Assembly (NCBI GenBank): GCA_036768485.1 | Contig: JAVLUZ010000033.1 | Location: 293,266-357,265, forward strand | Direction: 5' to 3' | Source: Mermis nigrescens | Taxonomy: Eukaryota > Nematoda > Enoplea > Mermithida > Mermithidae | DNA: 64,000 nucleotides | Part shown: positions 1 to 31,245 of the stretch, piece by piece | How positions within the stretch are numbered: the first letter of the stretch is position 1 | Layout of the letters: every line of letters starts with the position of its first letter | Notes under the pieces: model-generated | Databases searched by the model: none | Told to the model about the DNA's origin: nothing | The model's input: only the letters and a program-made list of their open reading frames with translations | Made by a program: the position numbers and the translations under genes

Positions 1-2
1 AC

Positions 3-962
3 GTGAAACAATGGTTAGAAAAACAGCCCACCTACACGTTACACAAACCCGCCCTCAAGAGGTATTCTCGAAATAAAGTGTTAGTAAGTAGCATTGATGA
101 ACAATGGCAATGTGATATTGTAGATCTGCAGTCCTTAAGCAAGTTTAATGATAATTTTAAGTATCCCATGAATTGCATAGACATATTTTCAAAGCACGCA
201 TGGTCCATCCTTTTGAAATCTAAAAGTTCAAAAGATGTTCTGACCGCTTTTCAAAGCATTTTGCATTCATCAAATCGAAAACCTTACAAGCCAGCAAACA
301 GACGCAGGGACCAAATTTACAAACAAAGAATTTCAAAAATTTCTTAAATCTGAATCTATCGAGTTTTTCACGACTAAAAGCGAAATGAAGGCTAGCATAG
401 TGGAACGGTTTAATCGCATGCTTAAAGAACGTATGTGGCGGTACTTCACCACCAAGAGCAATTCATATAAATTTATTGACGTATTGCCCGACCTGATGAA
501 AAACTATAATCACTCCAAGCATCATACGATAGAGTAAACCTTGCCAGCTAATGTCATCGTTAAAAATGAGATGAAAATTTTAAATAAAGCATTTAGGATT
601 GATAAACAGAACGTTGTTTTTAAATTTAATATTGGCGATAAAGTCCGACTGAGTAAAAGTTAAGCGCGCTTATGAAAAAGGATTTTGGCCCAACTGGACA
701 GAGGAGTTTTTCATAATTAAGGAGAGGTTTGCTCGCACACCGCCTGTTTACGTTTTAGAAGACCAAATGGGCGAAAAAGTCGAGGGTATTTTCTACGAAC
801 CTGAACTGCAAAAATTAATATATCTCTCGGATGACTTGTTTATTGTTTAAAAGATTTTGAAAACGCGTAAGAAAGGCAATAAAACTGATTATTTAGTGCG
901 CTGGCGAGGGTAATTCCAGAAAAGTTTGATTCCTGGGTCTCAAATCCTGATAAAAGATATAA
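3..962 (+). pseudogene. Polinton integrase with chromodomain, left palindrome copy (5' end outside window)
   Basis: Retroviral-type (rve) integrase of a Polinton/Maverick, which would insert the element by DDE transesterification. The copy enters the window already inside the N-terminal region. Visible blocks in order are the first catalytic Asp context (QWQCDIVDLQSL, about 108-145), the VERFN glutamate block (about 400) and the SH3-like FNIGDKV block (about 622-650). A C-terminal chromodomain with YLVRWRG follows (about 885-910). Reading is broken by frameshifts near 290 and 650 and by in-frame stops, for example near 535, 848 and 911, so it is dead. It is the inverted partner of the copy at 3019-4076, and the right copy has fewer defects. 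The stop is placed by comparison with that copy. Family assignment is by recognised motifs. Confidence 0.8.
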
Positions 963-991
963 ACGTCTAAAAAAGGGCGCCTAAAGGGCCA

Positions 992-1250
992 GATTTTTAC
1001 ACTTTGCAATATTTATTTGTAAAGTTTGGAATATTTTTTGTAAAGTTTGGAAATTTTTTTGTAAAATTTGGAATATTTTTTGTAAAGTTTGGGATTAATT
1101 TTACGTGCTTAAGGATAGTACTTTTGCAAAGTTTGGAATATTTTTTGTAAAATTTGGAATATTTTTTGTAAAGTTTGGAATATTTTTTGTAAAGTTTGGA
1201 ATATTTTTTGTAAAGTTTGAAATTTTTTGTAAAAATTTGGAATATTATGT
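992..1250. repeat. 21-bp tandem array, left Polinton copy
   Basis: About eleven degenerate copies of a unit close to TTTTTTGTAAAGTTTGGAATA. Most units are exactly 21 nt, with a non-repeat spacer (TTTTACGTGCTTAAGG) near 1101. The period equals seven codons, so the minus-strand TBP frame stays open through the array and reads as Lys/Tyr-rich heptads (KLYKKYS). The array lies between the 3' ends of integrase and TBP. Confidence 0.85.
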
Positions 1251-1251
1251 A

Positions 1252-1764
1252 TCTAAGTTGCAATTTCTCAAGCATTGTTGAAACTATTTTATATGCTATA
1301 TGCAACTCATGCTTGTGTTTTGCACCTGTGAGAATCATTTTCCCACTTGTAAAGAGTAAAAAGGTCACTGTTCTAAATTTGTATACTAATCCGGGAAATA
1401 ATTCTACTTCATACATGCATTTCCTTTTCACCAGCTCATAAAACTTACAAAGATCAATGCGGAATCCCAAGTTAGCTGAGCCAACAAACAGCACTGGCTT
1501 TATTTTCAAAATGAAATTCTCCATCTTCAGTATATCAACGAATGTCTTTATCGTATTTTCGCCTTCTCGCATAGTTTTAGCTCCAACACATACAAGTTTA
1601 CCGGACTTGAAAATCAGCAATGTTGCCTGAGGTAATCAAAATATGATGCCTGGAAATTTTGAGCTTTTGTTTTGGGCAGTATTTGGCAATTTAGAGTAGA
1701 TATCATCTAGATTCAGCGTATTTGGTAGTGCTGTAGTCAGCACAATGTTCTGTAGAGTCACCAT
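1252..1764 (-). pseudogene. TATA-binding protein (TBP), Polinton-borne, left copy
   Basis: Left palindrome copy of the TBP gene described at 2249-2755. The start is the ATG at 1764, found by alignment with the right copy. Both TBP repeats are recognisable, including the ELFPGLVYKF and LLFTSGKMILTGAK blocks. An in-frame TGA replaces an Arg codon just before the LPQATLLIF block, so the N-terminal part is cut off. At the 3' end one extra T relative to the right copy removes the stop. The frame then continues to 997 through the 21-bp array as a Lys/Tyr-rich heptad tail. Whether that tail is ancestral or a decay product cannot be told from two copies. Confidence 0.8.
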
Positions 1765-1768
1765 TTTC

Positions 1769-1776
1769 TATAAATA
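1769..1776 (+). promoter_or_regulatory. TATAAATA box before left ATPase copy
   Basis: CTATAAATA lies about 35 bp upstream of the ATPase ATG at 1810. It is also immediately 5' of the divergent TBP start at 1764. The arrangement matches the right arm. Confidence 0.5.
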
Positions 1777-1809
1777 CTTCATGATAAACTTATATTTATA
1801 CGTATAACC

Positions 1810-1948
1810 ATGATGTCCAACATCCTTTCACCTGCCTTGTTTCAGGACCAATCAAGTCTGGCAAAACAACATTTGTCACGCAATTAATTGAAAAAAGAGC
1901 ACACTAGATTGATATTAAAATCAAAAAGATTTGGTGGTGCTTTTGCAT
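1810..1948 (+). pseudogene. Polinton packaging ATPase (FtsK/HerA type), N-terminal fragment, left copy
   Basis: N-terminal fragment of the A32-like genome-packaging ATPase typical of Polintons. The Walker A/P-loop block SGPIKSGKTTF is intact (about 1845-1880) and is followed by the KKIWWCF block. A 1-nt difference after the ATG and an in-frame TAG break it. The palindrome junction then replaces the rest of the gene with its own inverted sequence. The right copy (1950-2200) has the reverse pattern: Walker B is kept and Walker A is damaged. Confidence 0.75.
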
Positions 1949-1949
1949 A

Positions 1950-2200
1950 AGATCATCGAGAATCAACAGTTGTGGCACATGACTAAATTGTTTTAAGTAA
2001 TTGAAATCAGGAAGCCCTTCTATGAATAAAACATCATTCAATTTTTTATAAAGAGGCTGATTTTCTGCAAAGCACCACCAAATCTTTTTGATTTTAATAT
2101 TAATCAAGTGTGCTGTTTTTTCAATTAATTGCATGACATATGTTGTTTTGCCAGACTTGGTTGGTCATGAAGCAAGGCAGGTGAAAGGATGTTGGAACAT
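1950..2200 (-). pseudogene. Polinton packaging ATPase (FtsK/HerA type), truncated, right copy
   Basis: Minus-strand ATPase fragment starting at the ATG at 2200, 37 bp downstream of a TATAAATA box. It shows the P-loop KSGKTTYV preceded by an in-frame stop. The KKIWWCFAENQPLYKK block follows, then the Walker B strand LLILDDLMQ near 1955-1985. It ends abruptly at the palindrome junction. The ATPase half seen at 29482-29940 (sensor and C-terminal region) is missing. In intact elements the enzyme powers DNA packaging into capsids. No capsid or protease gene is visible in this window. Confidence 0.8.
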
Positions 2201-2236
2201 AATGGTTATGGGTATGAATATAAGTTTATCATGAAG

Positions 2237-2244
2237 TATTTATA
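2237..2244 (-). promoter_or_regulatory. TATAAATA box in the divergent ATPase/TBP intergenic region
   Basis: On the minus strand TATAAATA lies 37 bp before the ATPase ATG (2200). On the plus strand a TATAAGTT at 2219-2226 lies 23 bp before the TBP ATG (2249). The 48-bp gap therefore looks like a compact bidirectional promoter. Confidence 0.55.
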
Positions 2245-2248
2245 GAAA

Positions 2249-2755
2249 ATGGTGACTATACAGACAGCACCACTACCAAATACGCTGAATCTAGATGATA
2301 TCTACCCTAAATTGCCAAATACTGCCCAATACAATCGCTCAAAATTTCCAGGCATCATATTTCGATTACCTCAGGCAACATTGCTGATTTTCAAGTCGGG
2401 TAAAATTGTATGTGTTGGAACTAAAACTATGCAAGAAGGCGAAAATACGATAAAGACATTCGTTGATATACTGAAGATGGAGAATTTCATGTTGAAAATA
2501 AAGCCAGTGCTGTTTGTTGGCTCAGCTAACTTGGGATTCCGCATTGATCTTTGTAAGTTTTATGAGCTGGTGAAAAGGAAATGCATGTATGAAGTAGAAT
2601 TATTTCCCGGATTAGTATACAAATTTAGAACAGTGACCTTTTTACTCTTTACAAGTGGGAAAATGATTCTCACAGGTGCAAAACACAAGCATGAGTTGCA
2701 TATAGCATATAAAATAGTTTCAACAATGCTTGAGAAATGCAACTTAGATACGTAA
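2249..2755 (+). CDS. TATA-binding protein (TBP) encoded by a Polinton
   Basis: A 168-residue protein consisting essentially of the TBP core. Repeat 1 spans residues about 12-88 and repeat 2 about 89-163. The diagnostic blocks are SKFPGIIFRL, LLIFKSGKIVCVG, ELFPGLVYKF and LLFTSGKMILTGAK. All four DNA-kinking phenylalanines are present (F33, F48, F119, F134). Known TBPs bind the TATA minor groove and nucleate RNA polymerase II or III initiation. The length is close to the usual core of about 180 residues and there is no long N-terminal arm. It lies head-to-head with the ATPase and tail-to-tail with integrase across the 21-bp array. The frame is uninterrupted here, unlike the left copy. Compared with the left copy, a 1-nt loss near the end creates the stop. 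The family call is strong. Function within the element is inference. Confidence 0.87.
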   Translation: MVTIQTAPLPNTLNLDDIYPKLPNTAQYNRSKFPGIIFRLPQATLLIFKSGKIVCVGTKTMQEGENTIKTFVDILKMENFMLKIKPVLFVGSANLGFRIDLCKFYELVKRKCMYEVELFPGLVYKFRTVTFLLFTSGKMILTGAKHKHELHIAYKIVSTMLEKCNLDT

Positions 2756-2990
2756 TATTCCAAATTTTACAAAAAATTTCCAAACTTTACAAAAAATATT
2801 CCAAACTTTACAAAAAATATTCCAAATTTAACAAAAAATATTCCAAACTTTGCAAAAGTACTATGCTTAAGCACGTAAAATTAATTCCAAACTTTACAAA
2901 AAATATTCCAAATTTTACAAAAAAAATATTCCAAACTTTACAAAAAATATTCCAAACTTTACAAAAATATATTACAAAGTGTAAAAATCT
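2756..2990. repeat. 21-bp tandem array, right Polinton copy
   Basis: Inverted counterpart of 992-1250: repeated TTCCAAACTTTACAAAAAATA units with a spacer (TATGCTTAAGCACG, about 2861-2875). It follows the TBP stop directly and stays open in the +1 frame as KLYKKYS-type heptads. Confidence 0.85.
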
Positions 2991-3018: not shown

Positions 3019-4076
3019 TATATCTTTATCAGGTTTGAGACCCAGGAATCAAACTTTTCTGGGTACCTCGCCAGCGCACTAAATAATCAGTTTTATTGCC
3101 TTTCTTACGCGTTTTCAAAATCTTTTCAACAATAAACAAGTCATCCGAGGATATATCAATTTTTTGCAGTTCAGGTTCGTAGAAAATACCCTCGACTTTT
3201 TCGCCCATTTGGTCTTCTAAAACGTAAACAGGGCGGTGTGCGAGCAAACCTCTCCTCAATTATGAAAAACTCCTCTGTCCAGTTGGGCCAAAATCCTTTT
3301 TCAAAAGCGCGCTTAACTTTACTCAGTCGGACTTTATCACCAATATTAAATTTAAAAACAACGTTCTGTTTATCAATCCTAAATGCTTTATTTAAAATTT
3401 CCATCTCATTTTTAACTGATAACATTAGCTGGCGAGGTACCTATTGTACGATGCTTGGAGTGATTATAGTTTTTCATCAGGTCGGGTAATACGTCAATAA
3501 ATTTATATGAATTGCTCTTGGTGAAGTACCGCCACATACGTTCTTTAAGCGTGTGATTAAAACGTTCCACTATGCTAGCCTTCATTTCGCTTTTAGTCGT
3601 GAAAAAATCGATAGATTCAGATTTAAGAAATTTTTGAAATTCTTTGTTTGTAAATTCGGTCCCTGCGTCTGTTTGCAGCTTGTACGGTTTTCGATTTGAT
3701 GAATGCAAAATGCTTTGAAAAGCGGTCAGAACATCTTTTGAACTTTTAGATTTCAAAGGATGGACCATGCGTACTTTGAAAATATGTCTATGCAATTCAA
3801 GAGATACTTAAAATTATCATTAAACTTGCTTAAGGACTGCAGATCTACAATATCACATTGCCATTGCTCATCAATGCTACTTACTAACACTTTATTTCGA
3901 GAATACCTCTTGAGGGCGGGTTTGTGTAACGTGTAGGTGGGCTGCTTTTCCAACCATTGTTTCACGTAGGACCGGTCTATTTTTGGCTTTACTTTTTTAG
4001 CCCTCTCATATAGCTGTTCCACGCTACTATACCCCGTTTTAGGGTCGTAATATATGTGCTTTAACACTTTTTCCAT
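3019..4076 (-). pseudogene. Polinton integrase with chromodomain, right palindrome copy
   Basis: Nearly complete integrase starting at ATG 4076. Parts in order are an N-terminal region (YYDPKTGYSSVEQLYERAKK), first Asp (QCDIVDLQSL), second Asp (LQTDAGTEF) and Glu (SIVERFNHTL). The counted spacing between the last two is 33 residues. The SH3-like block FKFNIGDKVRLSK follows, then a C-terminal chromodomain (TDYLVRWRG). At least three frameshifts break it (near 3795-3750, 3425-3412 and 3260-3170, plus one inside the chromodomain at the YP pair), so it cannot give one protein. The chromodomain may steer insertion to modified chromatin. It diverges from the polymerase gene at 4166. Confidence 0.85.
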
Positions 4077-4125: not shown

Positions 4126-4133
4126 TATAAATA
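4126..4133 (+). promoter_or_regulatory. TATAAATA box before Polinton polymerase gene
   Basis: CTATAAATA ends 32 bp before the polymerase ATG at 4166, inside the 89-bp divergent gap with integrase. A weaker minus-strand TATAAAA lies about 10 bp before the integrase ATG (4076). Confidence 0.55.
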
Positions 4134-4165: not shown

Positions 4166-4939
4166 ATGGAGCAGTACTTTGAAGTACATGAGCTCCCACA
4201 CATTTCTGTTCGTAGGTTTAGGACAACCGCTAAGGCATTTTTGTTGCGTTTTAAGAAATGCCCTAATCTCTTTGAGATTTTCGAACAGATTTTTGAAAAA
4301 GCTATTAACCTGATGTTGCATGGCTGTCCTTATGACAGTATGGTAGGCATTGAAATTAGACAGCCAAGCCTTTATACGCCTGTGTTAGTACCATTCACTC
4401 AACGTCAATACATAAATGCTGACAAGGTTTTGAGTATTATAGAAAAGGTGGCTCAGTCCCAAAAAGACTTTTGTTTAAGTGAAGACTTGACTTTCAAAGT
4501 AGTTCTGGTGGACAAAAAACCCCAAATGGGTACCGGTTATGAATTTGAAGTAGGTGACTTTTGCAAAAATGGTGGGGCATATATTAAAATCACATCAAAC
4601 GATAATTTATCATTAGCCAGAGCTGTTGTAACAGGTATAGCAAAGCTAGACAACTGCCCTAAGTGGGAATCTGTTCGGAAAGGTGACAAAGGACGGCACA
4701 CTCTGCAAAAGCAACTAGCATTAGAGCTGATGCACAAAGCTGATCTAAGCATTAATGACGAGAAATATGGACTTGAAGCTGTAGACAAAATTCAAAAGAG
4801 TCTGGTGCCAGACTACCAAATAAAAGTTTATCATGGCAATATTTTGTACTTTCAAGGGCCTGAGGCTGAGAAAGTAATTCACTTGCACGCTGCTAATAAT
4901 CATTATGATCTAATTACAAAAATGCCTGAGAAGCCCTAG
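4166..4939 (+). CDS. Polinton protein-primed DNA polymerase B, N-terminal part (truncated)
   Basis: 257 codons from ATG 4166; an upstream TTG at 4160 is unlikely to be the start. The sequence matches the conserved N-terminal region that precedes the exonuclease and polymerase domains in Polinton PolB. Diagnostic blocks are MVGIEIRQPSLYTPVLVPF, ARAVVTGIAKLDNCPKW, RHTLQKQLALELMHKA and a C-terminal LHAANNHYDLITKMP. The family normally continues with a cysteine cluster and then exonuclease and palm motifs. Here it stops after MPEKP, and no YxDTD-type motif follows, so this copy cannot replicate DNA. The frame is otherwise clean, in contrast to the neighbouring integrase. It could be a recent truncation or a split product. 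Assignment is by pattern recognition and could not be checked against a database. Confidence 0.75.
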   Translation: MEQYFEVHELPHISVRRFRTTAKAFLLRFKKCPNLFEIFEQIFEKAINLMLHGCPYDSMVGIEIRQPSLYTPVLVPFTQRQYINADKVLSIIEKVAQSQKDFCLSEDLTFKVVLVDKKPQMGTGYEFEVGDFCKNGGAYIKITSNDNLSLARAVVTGIAKLDNCPKWESVRKGDKGRHTLQKQLALELMHKADLSINDEKYGLEAVDKIQKSLVPDYQIKVYHGNILYFQGPEAEKVIHLHAANNHYDLITKMPEKP

Positions 4940-5107: not shown

Positions 5108-5434
5108 TTATAATACACGACTAACTCGCTCGTTTAGGCAATTTTCATACATGCTTTCCCATGTATTTTTGCCATTTTGATCGAAATCTTGCCATAAATC
5201 TAAAATAGGCTCGATTTCACGATTTATTAGGCATCGTTTCACATAAAGCGCAAAATTCCAAAATGCTTTCCGATTATCGATGCTTTTGCGATTTTCTTTG
5301 TATTCTTCAGAAAGCAAACTCCAAAAGCAGGAGCCAATGCTTTGTACATCGTGAGAAGTGATGTACCTCGTGCAGGCTTTATCAGCCAACTTGGTCACAA
5401 AATGATTAAAACTCAATTCACCTTGAGAACTCAT
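5108..5434 (-). CDS. Unrecognised 108-aa Polinton-linked protein
   Basis: Intact frame from ATG 5434, about 32 bp downstream of a minus-strand TATAAATA (5473-5466). The product is mixed charged and aromatic, and Trp-rich (CFWSLL, AFWNF, LDLWQDF, NTWESMY), with no signal peptide, membrane span or known motif. It sits convergent to the polymerase fragment and in tandem 42 bp downstream of the zinc-ribbon-like gene at 5477. Its place between Polinton genes and the shared promoter motif suggest an element gene. It is not recognisable as a capsid, protease or ATPase protein. Confidence 0.5.
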   Translation of the reverse strand: MSSQGELSFNHFVTKLADKACTRYITSHDVQSIGSCFWSLLSEEYKENRKSIDNRKAFWNFALYVKRCLINREIEPILDLWQDFDQNGKNTWESMYENCLNERVSRVL

Positions 5435-5476: not shown

Positions 5477-5800
5477 TTACAAGCCATTTTTCGCTTCTTC
5501 AACCTGTTGAGCAATATATTTCTTAATCACCATGTTCCCAGCCTCCTGGGATGCCCGATTATACTCACAACATCTTGGGCACATTTGAACGTTAAAATAC
5601 CATTTTCCTGAATTTGTTTCAAAAACGTCTTTTTCAGACGAATTTTTCTGACAAAAATGACATAAATGTATCATGAGAGGGTACATGGGACGCTCCAGAT
5701 TTCTCCCACATAACTCAATAGGCGGTCGTATTGTCCGCCCATAAGGTTTCTTCTCCTCATCCGTAAAAGGACGTTTTCTCAATTCCATATTTTCCTCCAT
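5477..5800 (-). CDS. Small zinc-ribbon-like Polinton-linked protein (107 aa)
   Basis: Intact 107-codon frame from ATG 5800. Two CxxC knuckles, CHFC (residues 47-50) and CPRC (74-77, followed by another Cys), are 23 residues apart, which is a plausible zinc ribbon. The N-terminus is acidic and basic (RKRPFTDEEKKPYGR) and the C-terminus is helical and charged (KKYIAQQVEEAK). A TATAAATA box at 5842-5835 precedes the ATG. It is first in a minus-strand tandem pair. Zinc ribbons occur in transcription factors such as TFIIB and TFIIS, which is tempting next to a TBP gene. The sequence does not identify it as either. Confidence 0.5.
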   Translation of the reverse strand: MEENMELRKRPFTDEEKKPYGRTIRPPIELCGRNLERPMYPLMIHLCHFCQKNSSEKDVFETNSGKWYFNVQMCPRCCEYNRASQEAGNMVIKKYIAQQVEEAKNGL

Positions 5801-10647: not shown

Positions 10648-10985
10648 GTTACCATACGTGATGGTAGAGGGGGTGACTCCCCAGAAGGGCCACTGGGCAA
10701 AAACCCCAAATCCAAACCACTGAAAAACAAATTTTCGGCGCTTCGCGCCATATACACCTTTGTTGACTATATTTTGTTCAATTTACTCGATTTTTTCCAA
10801 TTTTTTCGAAATTAAAAAAATGTTCTTATGATCTAGGAATAACGAGCATTATCCGAAACTTCAAAAAACAGCGTTTTTGACATGATACTCATCGTTTCGT
10901 AACCCGGAAAGGAACTTTTTTAAATTTTTTTGAGCCTGACCCCCCAGAATTCCTATGCAGTAACATGTATGATGGTTACCAACTA
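10648..10985. mobile_element. MITE-like repeat, family B
   Basis: Bounded by imperfect inverted ends (GGTTACCATACGTG / CATGTATGATGGTTACC). The core GGCGCTTCGCGCCATATACA also occurs at about 36010, 57520 and 60930, followed by the same T-rich tract. Non-coding. Confidence 0.65.
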
Positions 10986-21660: not shown

Positions 21661-21995
21661 AGATTGACGTGTTTCGGATCAGCAAGTTGCAAATCGATCA
21701 CTTCTGATAATTTGGTGGCCCTTAAAAGGGCCGTTGGGATAAGTAATACAATAAAAATCGACCGCTGGTCGATCCACCTATAGTCTGTTTCATTTATTTG
21801 AGAGCTTTTTAGTCAATTCTTTTAAGGGCTACAATAAGCGGAACAAGTCGAATTACTGTAATTCTGCAGATCAGCTCAGTGAGGGCGAGTGGCTGGAATT
21901 CTTCCATTTTAAATGCACAAATCCGCCTATATAAATTTAATTTAGGCATTTAATCAGTACTGGGATATACTACAGTAAGTGCGCTAAATAAAAAG

Positions 21996-24082: not shown

Positions 24083-24799
24083 TCAAATGTCTTGAAACAG
24101 CGTTCCGCTCTTGCAACACATCAACACGCTTATGCATGTTGTGTGTACCCTCTGCCATTGCAAATGATGGACCGAGTGAGCCAAAATCTAGGATTTAGAT
24201 TGAAACAAGCATGTGTTGTAAAAGATGCACCTCACATGCTGTGAATTCGTGAACTAATTTAGCTGAAAATTTGTTGCTTGTGGGTCATGGTCGAGAAAAT
24301 CTAGTAATTTTACTGTTTTTAGCAATTTTACGTCAAAATACACTGTTTTTTGCTCAAATAGCTCAATGGTAGGTTCAATGGTAGGTTCTGCATGTGTCTT
24401 GCAAAGGAGATCAGCATTAACTTATATACTGTGAAAGTGAATACATGAGGAAGAATAGCTCAAATTGATTTAGAATTCAACATACAGGTCATACACCTTT
24501 AACAAAGTGTGTACTATTTGTAGAGCTGAGCACAAAGCAACTGACACTATTATGATTAGTTAGGTCTCCGAGGCTATTCTTCTCTGCTGAGGAGTTTAAC
24601 AAAACCTTTCATTTCAATACAATAAATGCCTCAGAAACATAATTAACATGTATTATCAACTTTAGTTGGTTCAATCACTTCTTCTTTATTTGTATAACTT
24701 AAAGTAAAAAGTGCACTTAATTCAATTACATGTGAGCATTGAAAATAGCTCATAGATTGTAGAACAATTAGAAGGAAAGTGTAGGCAAATTAAGCAGTT

Positions 24800-25275
24800 T
24801 AGAAAAAACTGTGCGGAGGTTGGTAAAAAGTGGGCAGCTTTTGGAAAAAAGTGTGCAGAGTTTGGAAAAAAGGGTGCAGAGTTTGGAAAAAGTGTGCAGA
24901 GTTTGGAAAAAAGTGTGCAGAGTTCGGAAAAAAGTGTGCAGAGTTTAGAAAAAAGTGTGGAGAGTTTAAAAAAAAAGTGCGCAGAGTTTAAAAAAAAGTG
25001 TGCAGAGTTTGGAAGAAAGTTTGCAGAGTTTAGAAGAAAGTGTGCAGAGTTTGGAACATTTTTCACACGCTATAACATAGGAAGTGTGCAGAGTTTCGAA
25101 AAAAGTGTGCAGAGTTTGGAAAAAGTGGACAGAGTTTCGAAAAAAGTGTGCAGAGTTTCGAAAAAAGTGTGCAGAGATTTAGAAAAAAGTGTGCAGAGTT
25201 TGGAAAAAAGCGTGCAGGGTTAGGAAAAAAGTGTGCAGAGTTTGGAAAAAAGTGTGCAGAGTTTGGAAAAATACC
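24800..25275. repeat. 21-bp tandem array, GTGTGCAGAGTTTGGAAAAAA type
   Basis: About 22 copies of a mostly 21-bp unit, interrupted near 25060-25083 by TTCACACGCTATAACATAGG. The core GAGTTTGGAA is related to the Polinton arrays. The plus strand stays open 24894-25223 as heptads (SLEKSVQ / KKCAEFK). Confidence 0.85.
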
Positions 25276-25799: not shown

Positions 25800-26185
25800 C
25801 TTGTAAAGTTTGGAACATTTTTTGTAAAGTTAAGAACATTTTTCATAAAGTTTGGGACATTTTTGTAAAGTTTGGAACATTTTTTGTAAAGTTTCGAACA
25901 TTTTTGTAAAGTTTGGAACATTTTTTTGTAAAGTTTGGAACACATTTTACACGTTATAACATAAGAAGTTAGTGAAGTTTGGAACATTTTTTGTAAAGTT
26001 TTGAACATTTTTGTAAAGTTTGGAACATTTTTTGTAAAGTTTGGAACATTTTTGTAAAGTTTGGAACATTTCACTTAAAGTTTGGAACACTTTTTGTAAA
26101 GTTTGGAATTTTTTTGTAAAGTTTGGAACATTTTTGTAAAGTATGGGAAATTCGGAACAAAGCTTGTAAAATTTGGAACAAAGCT
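25800..26185. repeat. 21-bp tandem array, TTTTTGTAAAGTTTGGAACAT type
   Basis: About 17 copies of a 20-21-bp unit very close to the arrays at 992-1250 and 2756-2990, interrupted near 25948 by TTTTACACGTTATAACATAA. The minus-strand frame is open as NFTKNVP/KLYKKCS heptads. Confidence 0.85.
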
Positions 26186-26500: not shown

Positions 26501-29075
26501 GGGAAAGTCAGATTTTTCTAATTAAATCTGTGGTGATTTCACAATAGAAATAGTTAAAATTTCAAAAAAGAAATTCAAATAGGTCTGTTTTTTTATATAC
26601 TGTTATTGTTTCTTGATTTATAAATCTGCAAAGTCTGACTACTCATTTTTTTGTGTTTCTGCTTTTTTACAGTACACATATGAACAATTAGGACTTTTCT
26701 GATGTTGAATGTGATTGTTATGGGTGCGCTCAACAAACTAATTTTCGCTTCATTGAATTGATTTTTAAAAGGTGTAAAGTCTGACTGTCAGCTTAACTCA
26801 TAATGCATAGTCTGACTATATGTCTTACTTGATAGTTAATCATTACGTGCAATACATTGTAATTAAACTCTAAATGGGAGAGTCAGATTCCTCTAAATAA
26901 ATTAGTATATAAATCTGTAGGGATTTCACTATAAAAATTAATAAAATTTTAAAAAGAAATTAAAATAGTTTAATTTTCCGTACACTGTTATTGTTTCTTG
27001 ACTTTACAATCTGCAAAGTCTGACTACTCATTTTTTTGTGTTTCTGCTTTTTTAACAGTACACATATGACCAATTACGACTTTTCTGATGTTGAATGTGA
27101 TTGTTATGGGTGCGCTCAACAAACTAATTTTCGCTCCATTGGATTGATTTTTAAAAGGTGTAAAGTCTGACTGTCAGCTTAACTCATAATGCATAGTCTG
27201 ACTATCTGTTGCACCTTGATAGCAAATCAGGGCGTGTAATACATTGAAATTCAGCTCAAAATGGGAAAGTCAGATTTTTCTAATTAAATCTGTGGTGATT
27301 TCACAATAGAAATAGTTAAAATTTCAAAAGAAATTCAAATAGGTTTGTTTTTTTATATACTGTTATTGTTTCTTGATTTATAAATCTGCAAAGTCTGACT
27401 ACTCATTTTTTGTGTTTCTGCTTTTTTACAGTACACAAATGGCCAATTAGGACTTTTCTGATGTTTCAATGTGATTGTTATGGGTGCTCTCAATAAACTA
27501 ATTTTCGCTTTATTAAATTGATTTTAAAAAGGTGTAAAGTCTGACTGTCAGCTCAACTCAAACTGCATAGTCTGTCTATATGTCTTACTTGATAGTTAAT
27601 CATTACGTGCAATACATTGTAATTCAACTCTAAATGGGAGAGTCAGATTCCTCTAAATAAATTAGTATATAAATCTGCAGGGATTTCACTATAAAAATTA
27701 ATAAAATTTTAAAAAGAAATTCAAATAGTTTAATTTTTTCGTACACTCTTATTGTTTCTTAACTTTACAATCTGCAAAATCTGACTACTCATTTTTTTGT
27801 GTTTCTGCTTTTTTACCGTACACATATGGCCAATTATGACTTTTCTGATGTTGCAATGTGATTGTTATGGGTGCGCTCAATAAACTAACTTTCGCTCCAT
27901 TAAATTGATTTTAATAGGTGAAAAGTCTGACTGTCAGCTCAACTCAAACTGCATAGTCTGACTATATGTCTTACTTGAAAGTTAATCATAACGTGCAATA
28001 CATTGTAATTCAACTCTAAATGGGAGAGTCAGATTCCTCTAAATAAATTAGTATATAAATCTGCAGGGATTTCACTATAAAAATTAATAAAATTTTAAAA
28101 GAAATTCAAATAGTTTAATTTTTTCGTACACTGTTATTGTTTCTTGACTTTACAATCTGCAAAATCTGACTACTCATTTTTTTGTGTTTCTGTTTTTTTA
28201 CCGTACACATATGGCCAATTAGGACTTTTCTGATGTTGCAATGTGATTGTTATGGGTGCGCTCAATAAACTAATTTTCGCTCCATTAAATTGATTTTAAA
28301 AAGGTGTAAAGTCTGACTGTCAGCTCAACTCAAACTGCATAGTCTGACTATATGTCTTACTTGATAGTTAATCATTACGTGCAATACATTGTAATTCAAC
28401 TCTAAATGGGAGAGTCAGATTCCTCTAAATAAATTAGTATATAAATCTGCAGGGATTTCACTATAAAAATTAATAAAATTTTGAAAAGAAATTCAAATAG
28501 GTTAATTTTCTTATAAACTGTTATTGTTTCTTGATTTATAAATCTGCAAAGTCTGACTACTCATTTTTGTGTTTCTGCTTTTTTTACAGTACACAAATGG
28601 CCAATTAGGACTTTTCTGATGTTGCAATGTGATTGTTATGGGTGCTCTCAATAAACTAATTTGCGCTCCATTAAATTGATTTTAAAAAGGTGTAAAGTCT
28701 GACTGTCAGCTTAACTCATACTGCATAGTCTGACTATCTATTGCACCTTGATAGCAAATCAGGACGTGTAATACATTGAAATTCAGCTCAAAATGGGAAA
28801 GTCAGATTTCTCTAATTAAATCTGTGGTGATTTCACAATAGAAATAGTTAAAATCTTAAAAGAAATTCAAATAGGTTAATTTTTTATACACTGTTATTGT
28901 TTCTTGACTTTACAATCTGCAAAATCTGACTACTCATTTTTTGTGTTTCTGCTTTTTTACAGTTCACATATGACCAATTAGGACTTTTCTTATGTTGCAA
29001 TGTGTAATTTTCGCTCCATTAAATTGGTTTTAAAAGGTGTAGAGTCTGACTAAGGTCTGACTATATCAGTTGGGA
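26501..29075. repeat. Satellite of about 375-387 bp, seven copies
   Basis: The marker AAGTCTGACTACTCATTTTT (with AAATCTGACT variants) starts at 26631, 27016, 27391, 27777, 28162, 28549 and 28922. Two subtypes alternate irregularly, one with GGGAAAGTCAG plus CACCTTGATAGC and one with GGGAGAGTCAG plus CTTACTTGATAG. Each unit holds several AGTCTGACT/AGTCAGA motifs. The last copy is shortened and runs into the Polinton pX-like gene. No coding capacity. Confidence 0.92.
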
Positions 29076-29089
29076 CGAGAATCGTTTTT

Positions 29090-29449
29090 TCAGTATGCTT
29101 CATTTTTCCCAATTATTGCATTTGCTATCGAACTACCAACTAGTGAAAGAATCGGAGTAAGTAAGAAGGGTAAAAAACCACCGTTTTGAAAGATGACGTT
29201 TTTCCTTTCTTTTGTTGATGCCTTTTTATTATTACCCAGGTACCTTATTTGCTTTTGATATCGTAGTAATTTTCGAAACTCTTGATCGGAAAATGGAATA
29301 TTGCCCTTCAAAAAATTACGCACACAGTCACAAACACATAAAATTTGATCCTTACTAGCCGTATTTATGATAGCATCCCTCTGAGCTTGCTTAGCTGTAT
29401 TTAATAAATGTAAGCAGCCAATGTTGCGTTTGAGACGATTTGGAGCCAT
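29090..29449 (-). CDS. Polinton small conserved protein (pX-like, membrane-active candidate)
   Basis: 119 intact codons from ATG 29449. The N-terminus is basic, followed by a helical middle with KLLRYQKQIRYLGNN and a C-terminal Gly-Gly plus hydrophobic segment (QNGGFLPFLLTPILSLVG, residues about 88-113). This layout matches a small protein widely found in Polintons and adintovirus-like elements, compared by others with the adenovirus core peptide pX. A role in virion assembly or membrane handling is inferred. Its TATAAATA box (29486-29479) overlaps the stop of the upstream ATPase. It is the only gene of this fragment without visible damage. Confidence 0.65.
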   Translation of the reverse strand: MAPNRLKRNIGCLHLLNTAKQAQRDAIINTASKDQILCVCDCVRNFLKGNIPFSDQEFRKLLRYQKQIRYLGNNKKASTKERKNVIFQNGGFLPFLLTPILSLVGSSIANAIIGKNEAY

Positions 29450-29478
29450 TTCTCTTTAATTATCTCTTGCATTATTAT

Positions 29479-29486
29479 TATTTATA
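29479..29486 (-). promoter_or_regulatory. TATAAATA box of the pX-like gene, overlapping ATPase stop
   Basis: The minus strand reads CTATAAATCTATAAATAATA. The ATPase ends ESINL-stop within it and the ATG at 29449 lies 30 bp downstream. Confidence 0.55.
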
Positions 29487-30105
29487 GATTTATAGATTCT
29501 GGGATATAAAGAGTTGGATGGGTACTGAAAATGTCTGTTTTTAGCCTATATAGATCATTAGCATTTTGTGTCAAATCGATCAAAAGGTAACCATGGGGCT
29601 GACTAGTTGCATCAATAAAGGCTTCTAAGAAATATTTTGAATTCGAAGGATACAGCTGGCGTGCTAAAACCTGTGCTTGCAGTTTATCACTTGGATTTTT
29701 AAACAGCACTATATAATCTGAATTCACTCGCGAAGTTCGAAGACCATCAAAAAATAAATTGTGAACAACATGAATAAGGCTGACATTCCAATGATGGCAA
29801 CCACGAGTGAACAGCTGAATTAACTGTGGCTTGCCTTTGCTTTCTTGCATTAAATCATCCAACACCACTAACTGTGGTGTTGGACTATATTGCTTAATGC
29901 GATTAATATCTGGAAAACCTTCTACAGATGTGACTTTTTTAATTTTTGGTAGAGTGGTTGATTCTCTATATAACACCACCAAATTTTTGATACTCTAGTA
30001 TTTATGAGCCTTTCTCTATTTTGAATTATTTGTTGAATGAAGGATGTCTTCCCTGACTTTGTTGGTCCAGAAACTATACACGAGAAAGGATGCTCAAAAA
30101 GCATC
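29482..30105 (-). pseudogene. Polinton packaging ATPase (FtsK/HerA type), one frameshift
   Basis: The more complete ATPase of the window. The P-loop SGPTKSGKTSFIQQI lies near 30030-30060, then KIWWCYIENQPLYQKLK. A +/-1 frameshift occurs in an A-run near 29940. Then come GFPDINRIKQYSPTPQLV with Walker B VVLDDLMQ, HNLFFDGLRTSRVNSDYIVL, KNPSDKLQAQVLARQLYP and the C-terminus. Over 200 codons in total, a normal family length. The 5' side abuts integrase in head-to-head orientation at about 30110, where the start region has been joined to a truncated integrase. The orthologous fragment in the first element has WWCFAENQPLYKKL at the same place. Confidence 0.85.
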
Positions 30106-30113
30106 AAAGTACC

Positions 30114-30995
30114 CATCCACAATAAAGTTATAGTAAGTGGTATTGATAAGCAATGGCAGGCTGATCTTGTTGATTTACAGTCATTGAGCAAATTCAATGG
30201 TGGGTATAAATTTTTGCTAAATTGTATTGATTTGTTTTCAAAATACGCATGGTCTTTGCCACTCAAAGCTAAAACTTCAAAACCGATTCTAGAAGCATTC
30301 CAGGAAATTTTTAGAACCGGTCGAATGCCATATAAATTGCAGACAGATGCAGGAAAAGAATTTATCAACAGAGAAGTTTAAAAATTTTCTAAAAACTCAG
30401 GATATCCACTTTTTCAAAACATAAGGTGAACTAAAAGCCAGTGTCGTAGAACGTTTTAATCGAACTCCAAAGGAAAAAATGTGGAGATATTTTACAGCCG
30501 AAATAAATATAGGTACATTGACGTTTTGGCTGATTTGTTGGAAAATTATAATAATTCGTACCATCGAACTATAGGGACATTTCCGGCAAATGTTGATGAA
30601 GAAAATGAGCAGGAAATTCTGAATAAAGTATTTCGAACCATTAGACAATCTATGATGTTTAAATTTAATGTTGGAGATAATGTACGAATAAGTAAAGTAA
30701 AACGCGCATTTGAAAAAGGCTTTTGGCCTAATTATACAGAAGAGTGGTTCACAATTAAAAAAAATATGCAAGAACACTGCCTGTTTACACTCTGCAAGAT
30801 CAAATGGGTGAGGCATTGGAGGGTGTCTTTTATGAGCCGGAACTTCAAAAAATCCATGTAAAGAAAGGTGAGCTTTTGATTGTTGATAAAATTCTAAATA
30901 CGCGTAGGAGGAATAATAAGACCGAATATCTGGTCCACTGGTGGGGGTACCCATCAAAATTTGACTCTTGGGTTTCCACAGTGGTCAAACTGTAA
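30114..30995 (+). pseudogene. Polinton integrase with chromodomain, 5'-truncated
   Basis: Starts inside the protein at HNKVIVSGIDKQWQADLVDL (first catalytic Asp). LQTDAGKEF (second Asp), VVERFNR (Glu) and FKFNVGDNVRISK follow. The chromodomain KTEYLVHWWGYPSKFDSW ends with the stop at 30993-30995. The N-terminal part is missing through fusion to the ATPase start. Frameshifts occur near 30380, 30500 and 30780, and an in-frame stop at 30421, so it is inactive. A short open frame starting at 30037 is a chimera of antisense ATPase and integrase, not a real gene. Confidence 0.85.
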
Positions 30996-31009
30996 ATACT
31001 ATTGTTTTT

Positions 31010-31245
31010 TAATTTCCAAACTTTATATATAATTTCCAAATTTTACAAAATAAATTTCAAATTCTACAGAAAAGTTTCCAAATTTTACAAAATAATTTCC
31101 AAATTTTACAAAAAAGTTTCCAACTTCTACAAAATAATTTCCGAATTTTACATAAAAGTTTCCGAATTTTACAAAATAATTTTCAAATTTTACAAAATAA
31201 TTTCCAAATTTTATAAAATAATTTCCAAATTTAACAAAATATGTC
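31010..31245. repeat. 21-bp tandem array next to integrase 3' end
   Basis: About 11 units of TTCCAAATTTTACAAAATAA type. The plus strand is open 31002-31262 as SKFYKII/KKVS heptads. It shares its core with the other four arrays. Its orientation relative to integrase is opposite to that at 2756-2990. Confidence 0.85.

Follow-up and report, generated by a model that had tools for sequence, protein, structure and literature searches.

TBP GENES IN A POLINTON PALINDROME

The window—the whole 64-kb stretch of DNA analysed here—contains, toward its left end, a palindromic rearrangement of a Polinton, each arm of which carries a gene for TATA-binding protein (TBP) adjoining genes for a packaging ATPase and an integrase (Table 1). 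A preliminary description had noted two TBP core genes here, between integrase and ATPase; they are there, and such genes are more widespread than it noted. The Pfam search that it proposed for 2249–2755 matches the TBP profile in two stretches that correspond to the two lobes (8.7e-38). The four intercalating phenylalanines that it listed in the open copy (F33, F48, F119, F134) are all present, as are both of the glutamates at which TFIIB docks (C.L3.2 and C.L3.4), and the predicted fold is the saddle of TBP. Neither copy is undamaged. A 12-bp deletion in the first strand leaves that of the right arm with 4 residues fewer than the full-length copies of the family (171–172 aa), and that of the left arm is interrupted by a stop codon; they are decaying duplicates within the rearrangement. 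Six further rows in a tblastn search of the window with its own TBP are at chance level (E 2.0–9.7).

Table 1. Features of the window, in order of position
Feature	Position	Strand	Basis and remarks
Integrase, left-arm copy, broken	1..801	+	rve 4.9e-04 (below cut-off); tblastn
21-bp tandem repeats, left arm, between TBP and integrase 3' ends	1003..1246		Tandem Repeats Finder
TBP gene, left-arm copy	1255..1764	-	N-terminus intact, one in-frame TGA; tblastn 89%, direct translation
TATA box TATAAAT before left-arm TBP	1794..1800	-	Right-arm counterpart 2213-2219 is TATGAAT
Packaging ATPase, left-arm 5' part	1815..1943	+	tblastn to P0121, 72%
Packaging ATPase, right-arm 5' part, cut at palindrome centre	1940..2200	-	tblastn to P0121, 69%; start codon from sequence
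TATA box TATAAAT before ATPase, in divergent TBP/ATPase promoter	2238..2244	-	Same in 14/16 family ATPases
TBP gene, right-arm copy	2249..2755	+	Open frame of 168 aa; Pfam PF00352 8.7e-38, comparison of arms
21-bp tandem repeats, right arm, between TBP and integrase 3' ends	2754..2978		Tandem Repeats Finder
Integrase, right-arm copy, split over several frames	3174..4076	-	Pfam rve 1.2e-05 and 0.011, two pieces, below cut-off
TATA box before putative PolB	4126..4132	+	8/8 family copies with ATG start
Putative protein-primed PolB, 5' part	4166..4939	+	33% identity to L003 ORF, E=2e-14
Element ORF (ORF5434)	5108..5434	-	TATAAAT at -39
Small zinc-ribbon-like (by eye) protein, two CxxC pairs	5477..5800	-	TATAAAT at -42; BLASTP E=1e-07 to L001
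Second Polinton remnant: pX-like (-), ATPase (-), integrase (+), 21-bp repeats	29090..31241		Without TBP

Piece by piece, the broken right-arm integrase matches that of a family copy elsewhere in the genome (L012) at 100%, 99% and 80%, and the L012 integrase scores above the Pfam cut-off as a retrovirus-type enzyme (rve 4.4e-14). Beyond the integrase lies a gene that we take to encode a protein-primed DNA polymerase B; neither it nor its relative in contig L003 (see below) matches a Pfam polymerase family. The zinc-ribbon-like protein further along aligns with relatives in L003 and in a second contig, L001, and conserved small proteins with two CxxC pairs recur across TBP-bearing elements (L001 744–1226, L003 1813–2100, L038 1044–1403).

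In the second Polinton remnant the ATPase is head-to-head with an integrase that follows it directly and lacks its N-terminus; 21-bp repeats lie 3' of this integrase, as they do in the palindrome. An array of 6.5 tandem copies of a 386-bp unit (26523–29004) ends beside the remnant. Two more 21-bp arrays occur at 25801–26146 and 24796–25271, and the first of these is similar to the arrays lying 3' of the Polinton integrase, a possible sign of a further remnant. Elsewhere, the window contains a histone 3' UTR stem-loop (21691–21737, minus strand; Rfam E=1.8e-07).

TBP AS A RECURRENT POLINTON GENE

The TBP gene is not confined to this locus. A search of the genome (524 Mb, 860 contigs) with the window's TBP gave 150 scored matches out of 2133 first-look candidates, many of them inside elements; by our table count, 135 of the 150 have no internal stop and 15 have at least one. 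We call these family A. Besides the window's own, 19 loci were picked, because they contain a TBP, from across the identity range of this list, and were read with approximately 3 kb on either side, so that each stretch of this genome spans 3.3–7 kb. The integrase–TBP–ATPase order, which was proposed as something to look for in the host assembly, recurs in them: TBP is head-to-head with the ATPase across a gap of no more than ~80 bp in 16 of the 19, and the family's integrase flanks TBP on its opposite side, likewise in 16 stretches. In L019 and L020 an integrase-like piece separates TBP from ATPase, and in the stretch read for L027 no ATPase was found. The former belongs to a divergent integrase-like gene (33–41% identity) that occupies this place in one subfamily, at ~2283–2835 in L019 and L020, with a piece in L027.

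The ATPase was traced by matches to P0121—a protein that carries PF04665—which occur in 18 of the 19 stretches. Its A32-like profile score is 21.1 bits in L012, against a cut-off of 22.8, and 24.2 in L001. Among the 150 matches listed in a search with P0121, at least 33 have a family TBP within ~1.2 kb, as counted by eye. The other recurrent neighbors are a pX-like gene (17 stretches), part of the putative PolB (12) and a capsid gene (11). This last is ~37–52% identical to an ORF of L003 that itself reaches only 0.028 to a DJR-like profile, and the capsid piece of L012 matches no Pfam family.

Full-length TBP frames, beginning MVTIQN, are found in 18 of the 19 stretches; that of L028 is broken. 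These 18 copies are under purifying selection: in the 126 pairs with dS >0.1, dN/dS (Nei–Gojobori) has a median of 0.15 and a range of 0.09–0.31.

That TBP is a Polinton gene, as the preliminary description claimed, is true of other Polinton types, too. Scanning GTDB with an alignment of the ATPase brought up three contigs that contain genes of Polinton type; they are filed as parts of bacterial MAGs but are probably misbinned. In one of these, L003 (11.6 kb), a TBP gene (PF00352 1.9e-45, two stretches) diverges from the ATPase, and pX-like, integrase, capsid-like and protease-like genes follow; besides the capsid match already mentioned, the weaker assignments here are an adenain-type protease (7.4e-04, under the cut-off) and the pX-like core protein. 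L001 (3.4 kb) comprises a TBP, a zinc-ribbon-like gene and an ATPase; in L002 we found no TBP. A profile search also yielded TBP P0258, whose contig is 6582 bases long and bears the source tag lgn (taken as Logan); ATPase P0128 has the same size and tag, and so the two probably share one contig. Scans of IMG/VR with the TBP, the integrase, the ATPase, the ATPase and TBP alignments, and the L003 integrase detected no relative.

When the window's genome was searched with the TBP of a sawfly, 130 places were scored of 1975 candidates: the split TBP gene of the host, and at least 128 single-stretch places, 33–45% identical, with frames of 158–206 aa. Ten of the 128 were read (L034–L043). In L034–L037, which are near-identical, and in L039, L041 and L042, the end of a capsid gene, a protease-like gene, a gene that we presume to be ‘penton’-like, with no Pfam support for that label, and TBP follow one another in one direction. 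In L038 and L040, TBP lies beside a zinc-ribbon-like gene and a piece of integrase, and in L043 it accompanies pieces of ATPase and capsid. Adjoining the L043 element is an ORF of 364 aa (417–1508, minus strand) whose start looks F-box-like by eye. In the TBPs of a second family, B, synonymous change is saturated and pN is 0.19–0.30. Several distinct mobile TBP families appear to reside in this one animal genome.

TATA BOXES BEFORE ELEMENT GENES

Most of the gene starts that we examined are preceded, 32–53 bp upstream, by a TATAAATA box; the integrase mostly is not. If a box is scored as a TATAWAW that starts between −50 and −30 relative to the ATG, it precedes TBP in 17 of 18 family copies, the putative PolB in 8/8, the pX-like gene in 13/13, capsid in 7/7, ORF5434 in 9/11 and the ATPase in 14/16 (positions for the last being counted from an aligned start a few bases past the ATG), compared with 182 of 4401 background ATGs in the 19 loci; these counts, like those of the copies themselves, are not independent, because the family copies are relatives and some are near-identical. 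Two more PolB copies, which have no ATG at the aligned start, carry the box at −51, and the remaining two copies of ORF5434 have it at −52 and −53. The box is rare before the integrase (2/11) and the zinc-ribbon-like gene (1/3). A C precedes the common core, TATAAATA, at the capsid, pX-like, ATPase and putative PolB genes; TBP and ORF5434 have G or T there.

The window itself has boxes before six of eight genes, against a background of 10/231 (p=1.7e-7); two of the starts used for this count lie 2 and 1 bases off (2202 for the ATPase at 2200, 29450 for the pX-like gene at 29449), and the boxes of both remain within the range. Boxes precede five of 12 genes in L003—or five of 14 if two genes of uncertain start are included, a PolB-like one at 719 and an ORF at 10899, neither of which is boxed—against 11/377 (p=1.4e-5), and two of five in L001, against 2/119 (p=0.003). 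The TBP genes of L003, L001, L038 and L040 have no box. Among the other types in this genome (background 30/939), the box precedes TBP in family B (4/4) but not the protease and ‘penton’ genes (0/8); in L038 and L040 it precedes the zinc-ribbon-like gene (2/2) and not TBP (0/2); and in L043 it precedes TBP (1/1).

RESIDUES AT THE POSITIONS OF DNA AND TFIIB CONTACT

We compared the 18 family copies with 16 metagenome TBPs, taken as sequences alone, with 22 eukaryotic TBPs (one of them, P0256, without a name) and with 11 of archaeal type (six without names). All four phenylalanines are kept in the family copies, with the exception of a single change of F2 to Ile. Departures occupy four cells among the metagenome TBPs, and the fourth Phe is Tyr in L038 and L040. 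Threonines of TBP take part in contacting bases. That of lobe 1 is present in 21 of the 22 eukaryotic rows, in all 11 archaeal-type rows and in the host TBP, whereas every mobile TBP examined, apart from that of L043, has Val, Leu or Ile in its place (Val or Leu in 18/18 family copies). The lobe-1 Asn is present in full-length copies, but the lobe-2 Asn, retained in other TBPs, is Leu or Met in all 18 copies of family A and in P0001 and P0258. Both asparagines contact bases, according to the part of PMC12529657 available. The cellular combination of both Asn and both Thr, nearly universal in the eukaryotic and archaeal-type rows, is thus not found in the family.

The glutamates C.L3.2 and C.L3.4, to which TFIIB binding is tied in the accessible portion of PMC7221094, are present in 16/18 and 18/18 family copies, respectively, and the first of them in 9/16 metagenome TBPs. 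Judged by its sequence, then, the product is a bare two-lobe TBP in which the saddle is kept, the TFIIB glutamates are kept in most copies, and some of the base contacts are altered.

WHAT THE POLINTON TBP MIGHT DO

It seems likely to us that this is a long-standing TBP of several Polinton types, and that it serves the element's TATA boxes by way of host TFIIB and RNA polymerase II. From what is observed—the gene, its predicted fold, its synteny, the selection upon it, the boxes and the separate TBP of the host—we infer its expression, DNA binding, recruitment of TFIIB and benefit as follows. The element TBP would be expressed from its own TATA promoter and would bind to the TATAAATA boxes that precede most element genes, among them those for the ATPase, the core-type protein, the capsid and the putative polymerase. 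There it would recruit host TFIIB and RNA polymerase II, and the genes of the element could be activated jointly while relying less on host TFIID. Because the element has both its own TBP and a matching signal before most of its genes, it may supply its own start factor rather than rely on the host's alone; the earlier suggestion of a self-encoded promoter-recognition factor fits the distribution of boxes. The boxes are ordinary TATA boxes that host TBP may read as well, in which case the element TBP might serve to raise the supply, or to escape the control of host TFIID. Against our reading stand the starts that have no box (most of those of the integrase and zinc-ribbon-like genes, the TBP genes of L003, L001, L038 and L040, and the protease and ‘penton’ genes of family B), the loss of the first glutamate from 7 of the 16 metagenome TBPs, and the Polintons in which no TBP shows, namely the remnant at 29090–31241 and L002.

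A more specialized arrangement is conceivable, and we entertain it tentatively: in Polintons of several types an ancient, virus-type TBP might read, by means of its altered contacts, a dedicated and near-uniform TATAAATA core promoter, with the zinc-ribbon-like protein as a possible partner in initiation. An animal transposon would then carry a minimal, partly orthogonal system for recognizing promoters. That the protein acts instead as a competitor or decoy—occupying the TATA boxes of the host or of rival elements, or binding TFIIB, and so damping their transcription—strikes us as unlikely. The altered base-contact residues could indeed weaken or shift binding, but the TFIIB glutamates are mostly kept, and boxes precede the element's own genes at the distance expected in a promoter.

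ORIGIN OF THE POLINTON TBP

Capture from the host was regarded in the preliminary description as the obvious origin. The host has its own TBP, a separate, split gene (C73) whose two coding stretches are 86% and 78% identical to sawfly TBP. An Rfam search for SL1, which bears on whether the host is a nematode, gave no match, but gave none in any of 14 control genomes either. We built three trees, of 54, 59 and 65 sequences, the host TBP being in the last; the trees contain no TLF/TRF-type, nematode, mirusvirus or giant-virus TBPs. In all three, the cellular eukaryotic TBPs form one clade from which Polinton TBPs are absent (support 99/95, 99/96 and 99/82, respectively), and in the 65-sequence tree the host TBP takes its place within this clade, among those of animals. 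Pairing family A with the host TBP is rejected in that tree (AU p=3e-59), and two tests likewise reject a grouping of the window's clade with those of animals (p=0.0038 and 0.0087). Since the Polinton TBPs lie outside those of the host and of animals, recent capture of the host TBP, or of a host paralogue, is unsupported by these trees, and we consider it improbable. As capture would have it, the trees make the protein eukaryotic in type, not archaeal, and joining the window's clade to all cellular eukaryotic TBPs is compatible with the data (p=0.41); but relatives turn up in several types of element in the host genome and in contigs that are catalogued as bacterial MAGs.

These trees therefore point to an old TBP of eukaryotic type as the source, not a recent copy of the host gene, and because the Polinton protein is eukaryotic- rather than archaeal-type, a eukaryotic TBP is likely to be the ultimate source. 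An old capture from some early eukaryote is possible. That all mobile TBPs form a single clade is not shown, nor do three tests reject it (p=0.43, 0.064 and 0.38), family B joins the cellular TBPs in the 65-sequence tree (80/89), and the deep positions are unsure because of long branches (P0001, P0258, P0260, P0254, and L043 with L038/L040). There may have been one acquisition or several. Lastly, the idea that the TBP is a passenger, hitch-hiked debris or a gene now retained for the use of the host, draws on the damage to both window copies and the stops in a minority of matches, but is very hard to reconcile with low dN/dS across subfamilies, with the limited pN of family B despite synonymous saturation, and with many copies inside elements among conserved neighbors.

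COMPARISON WITH KNOWN SYSTEMS

We know of no general transcription factor in the established Polinton gene set. In the literature that we searched, itself covered in part only, we saw no report of a TBP in a Polinton, and term searches within the available parts of PMC11071308, PMC11071296, PMC12220804 and PMC10120064 found no TBP. The element is otherwise recognizable as a Polinton/Maverick (adintovirus-like): it shares the retrovirus-type integrase and A32-like packaging ATPase, and there are putative counterparts of the capsid, adenain-type protease and pX-like core protein, which give weaker matches in L003 and have relatives in this genome. What sets it apart is the TBP, together with the TATAAATA boxes that most of the genes examined have in front of them. 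If such an element does bring its own TBP, then an animal DNA transposon could coordinate the expression of its genes while being less tied to host TFIID.

Virus-like genomes of other kinds encode TBPs. In the parts of the sources available, TBP is present in 59% of mirusvirus genomes (PMC10132985), is conserved in Mimiviridae and their relatives (PMC3620924), and occurs in a Chrysochromulina virus (PMC12085832) and a megavirus (PMC11464507); TATA-binding proteins are described, too, from other viral elements that lack DNA polymerase, ATPase and jelly-roll capsid genes (PMC10675990, in part). Giant viruses, however, also encode RNA polymerase subunits and TFIIB (PMC11464507, same part), whereas none of the 14 ORFs of L003 that were scanned, out of 29 listed, matched TFIIB. 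In the viral TBPs the TFIIB glutamates have mostly diverged, as far as the accessible text of PMC7221094 goes, whereas in family A they are mostly kept. With mirusviruses and giant viruses, Polintons now join the TBP-carrying DNA viruses of eukaryotes, and their addition makes the existence of one old viral TBP lineage a testable question.

ORF24 of KSHV offers another parallel, again from the available part of PMC12529657. It is a virus-specific promoter reader that needs four TBP-like phenylalanines, but it reads TATTWAA, has additional domains that bind DNA and polymerase, and does not have the TFIIB glutamates; the Polinton protein, by comparison, is a bare two-lobe TBP. With cellular TBP the Polinton protein shares the two-lobe saddle, the four phenylalanines and, in full-length copies, the lobe-1 Asn; it differs in having no N-terminal tail and in its substitutions of the lobe-1 Thr and, in family A, P0001 and P0258, of the lobe-2 Asn. 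What the Polintons appear to offer is a compact, natural TBP with altered base contacts, paired with TATA boxes of its own.
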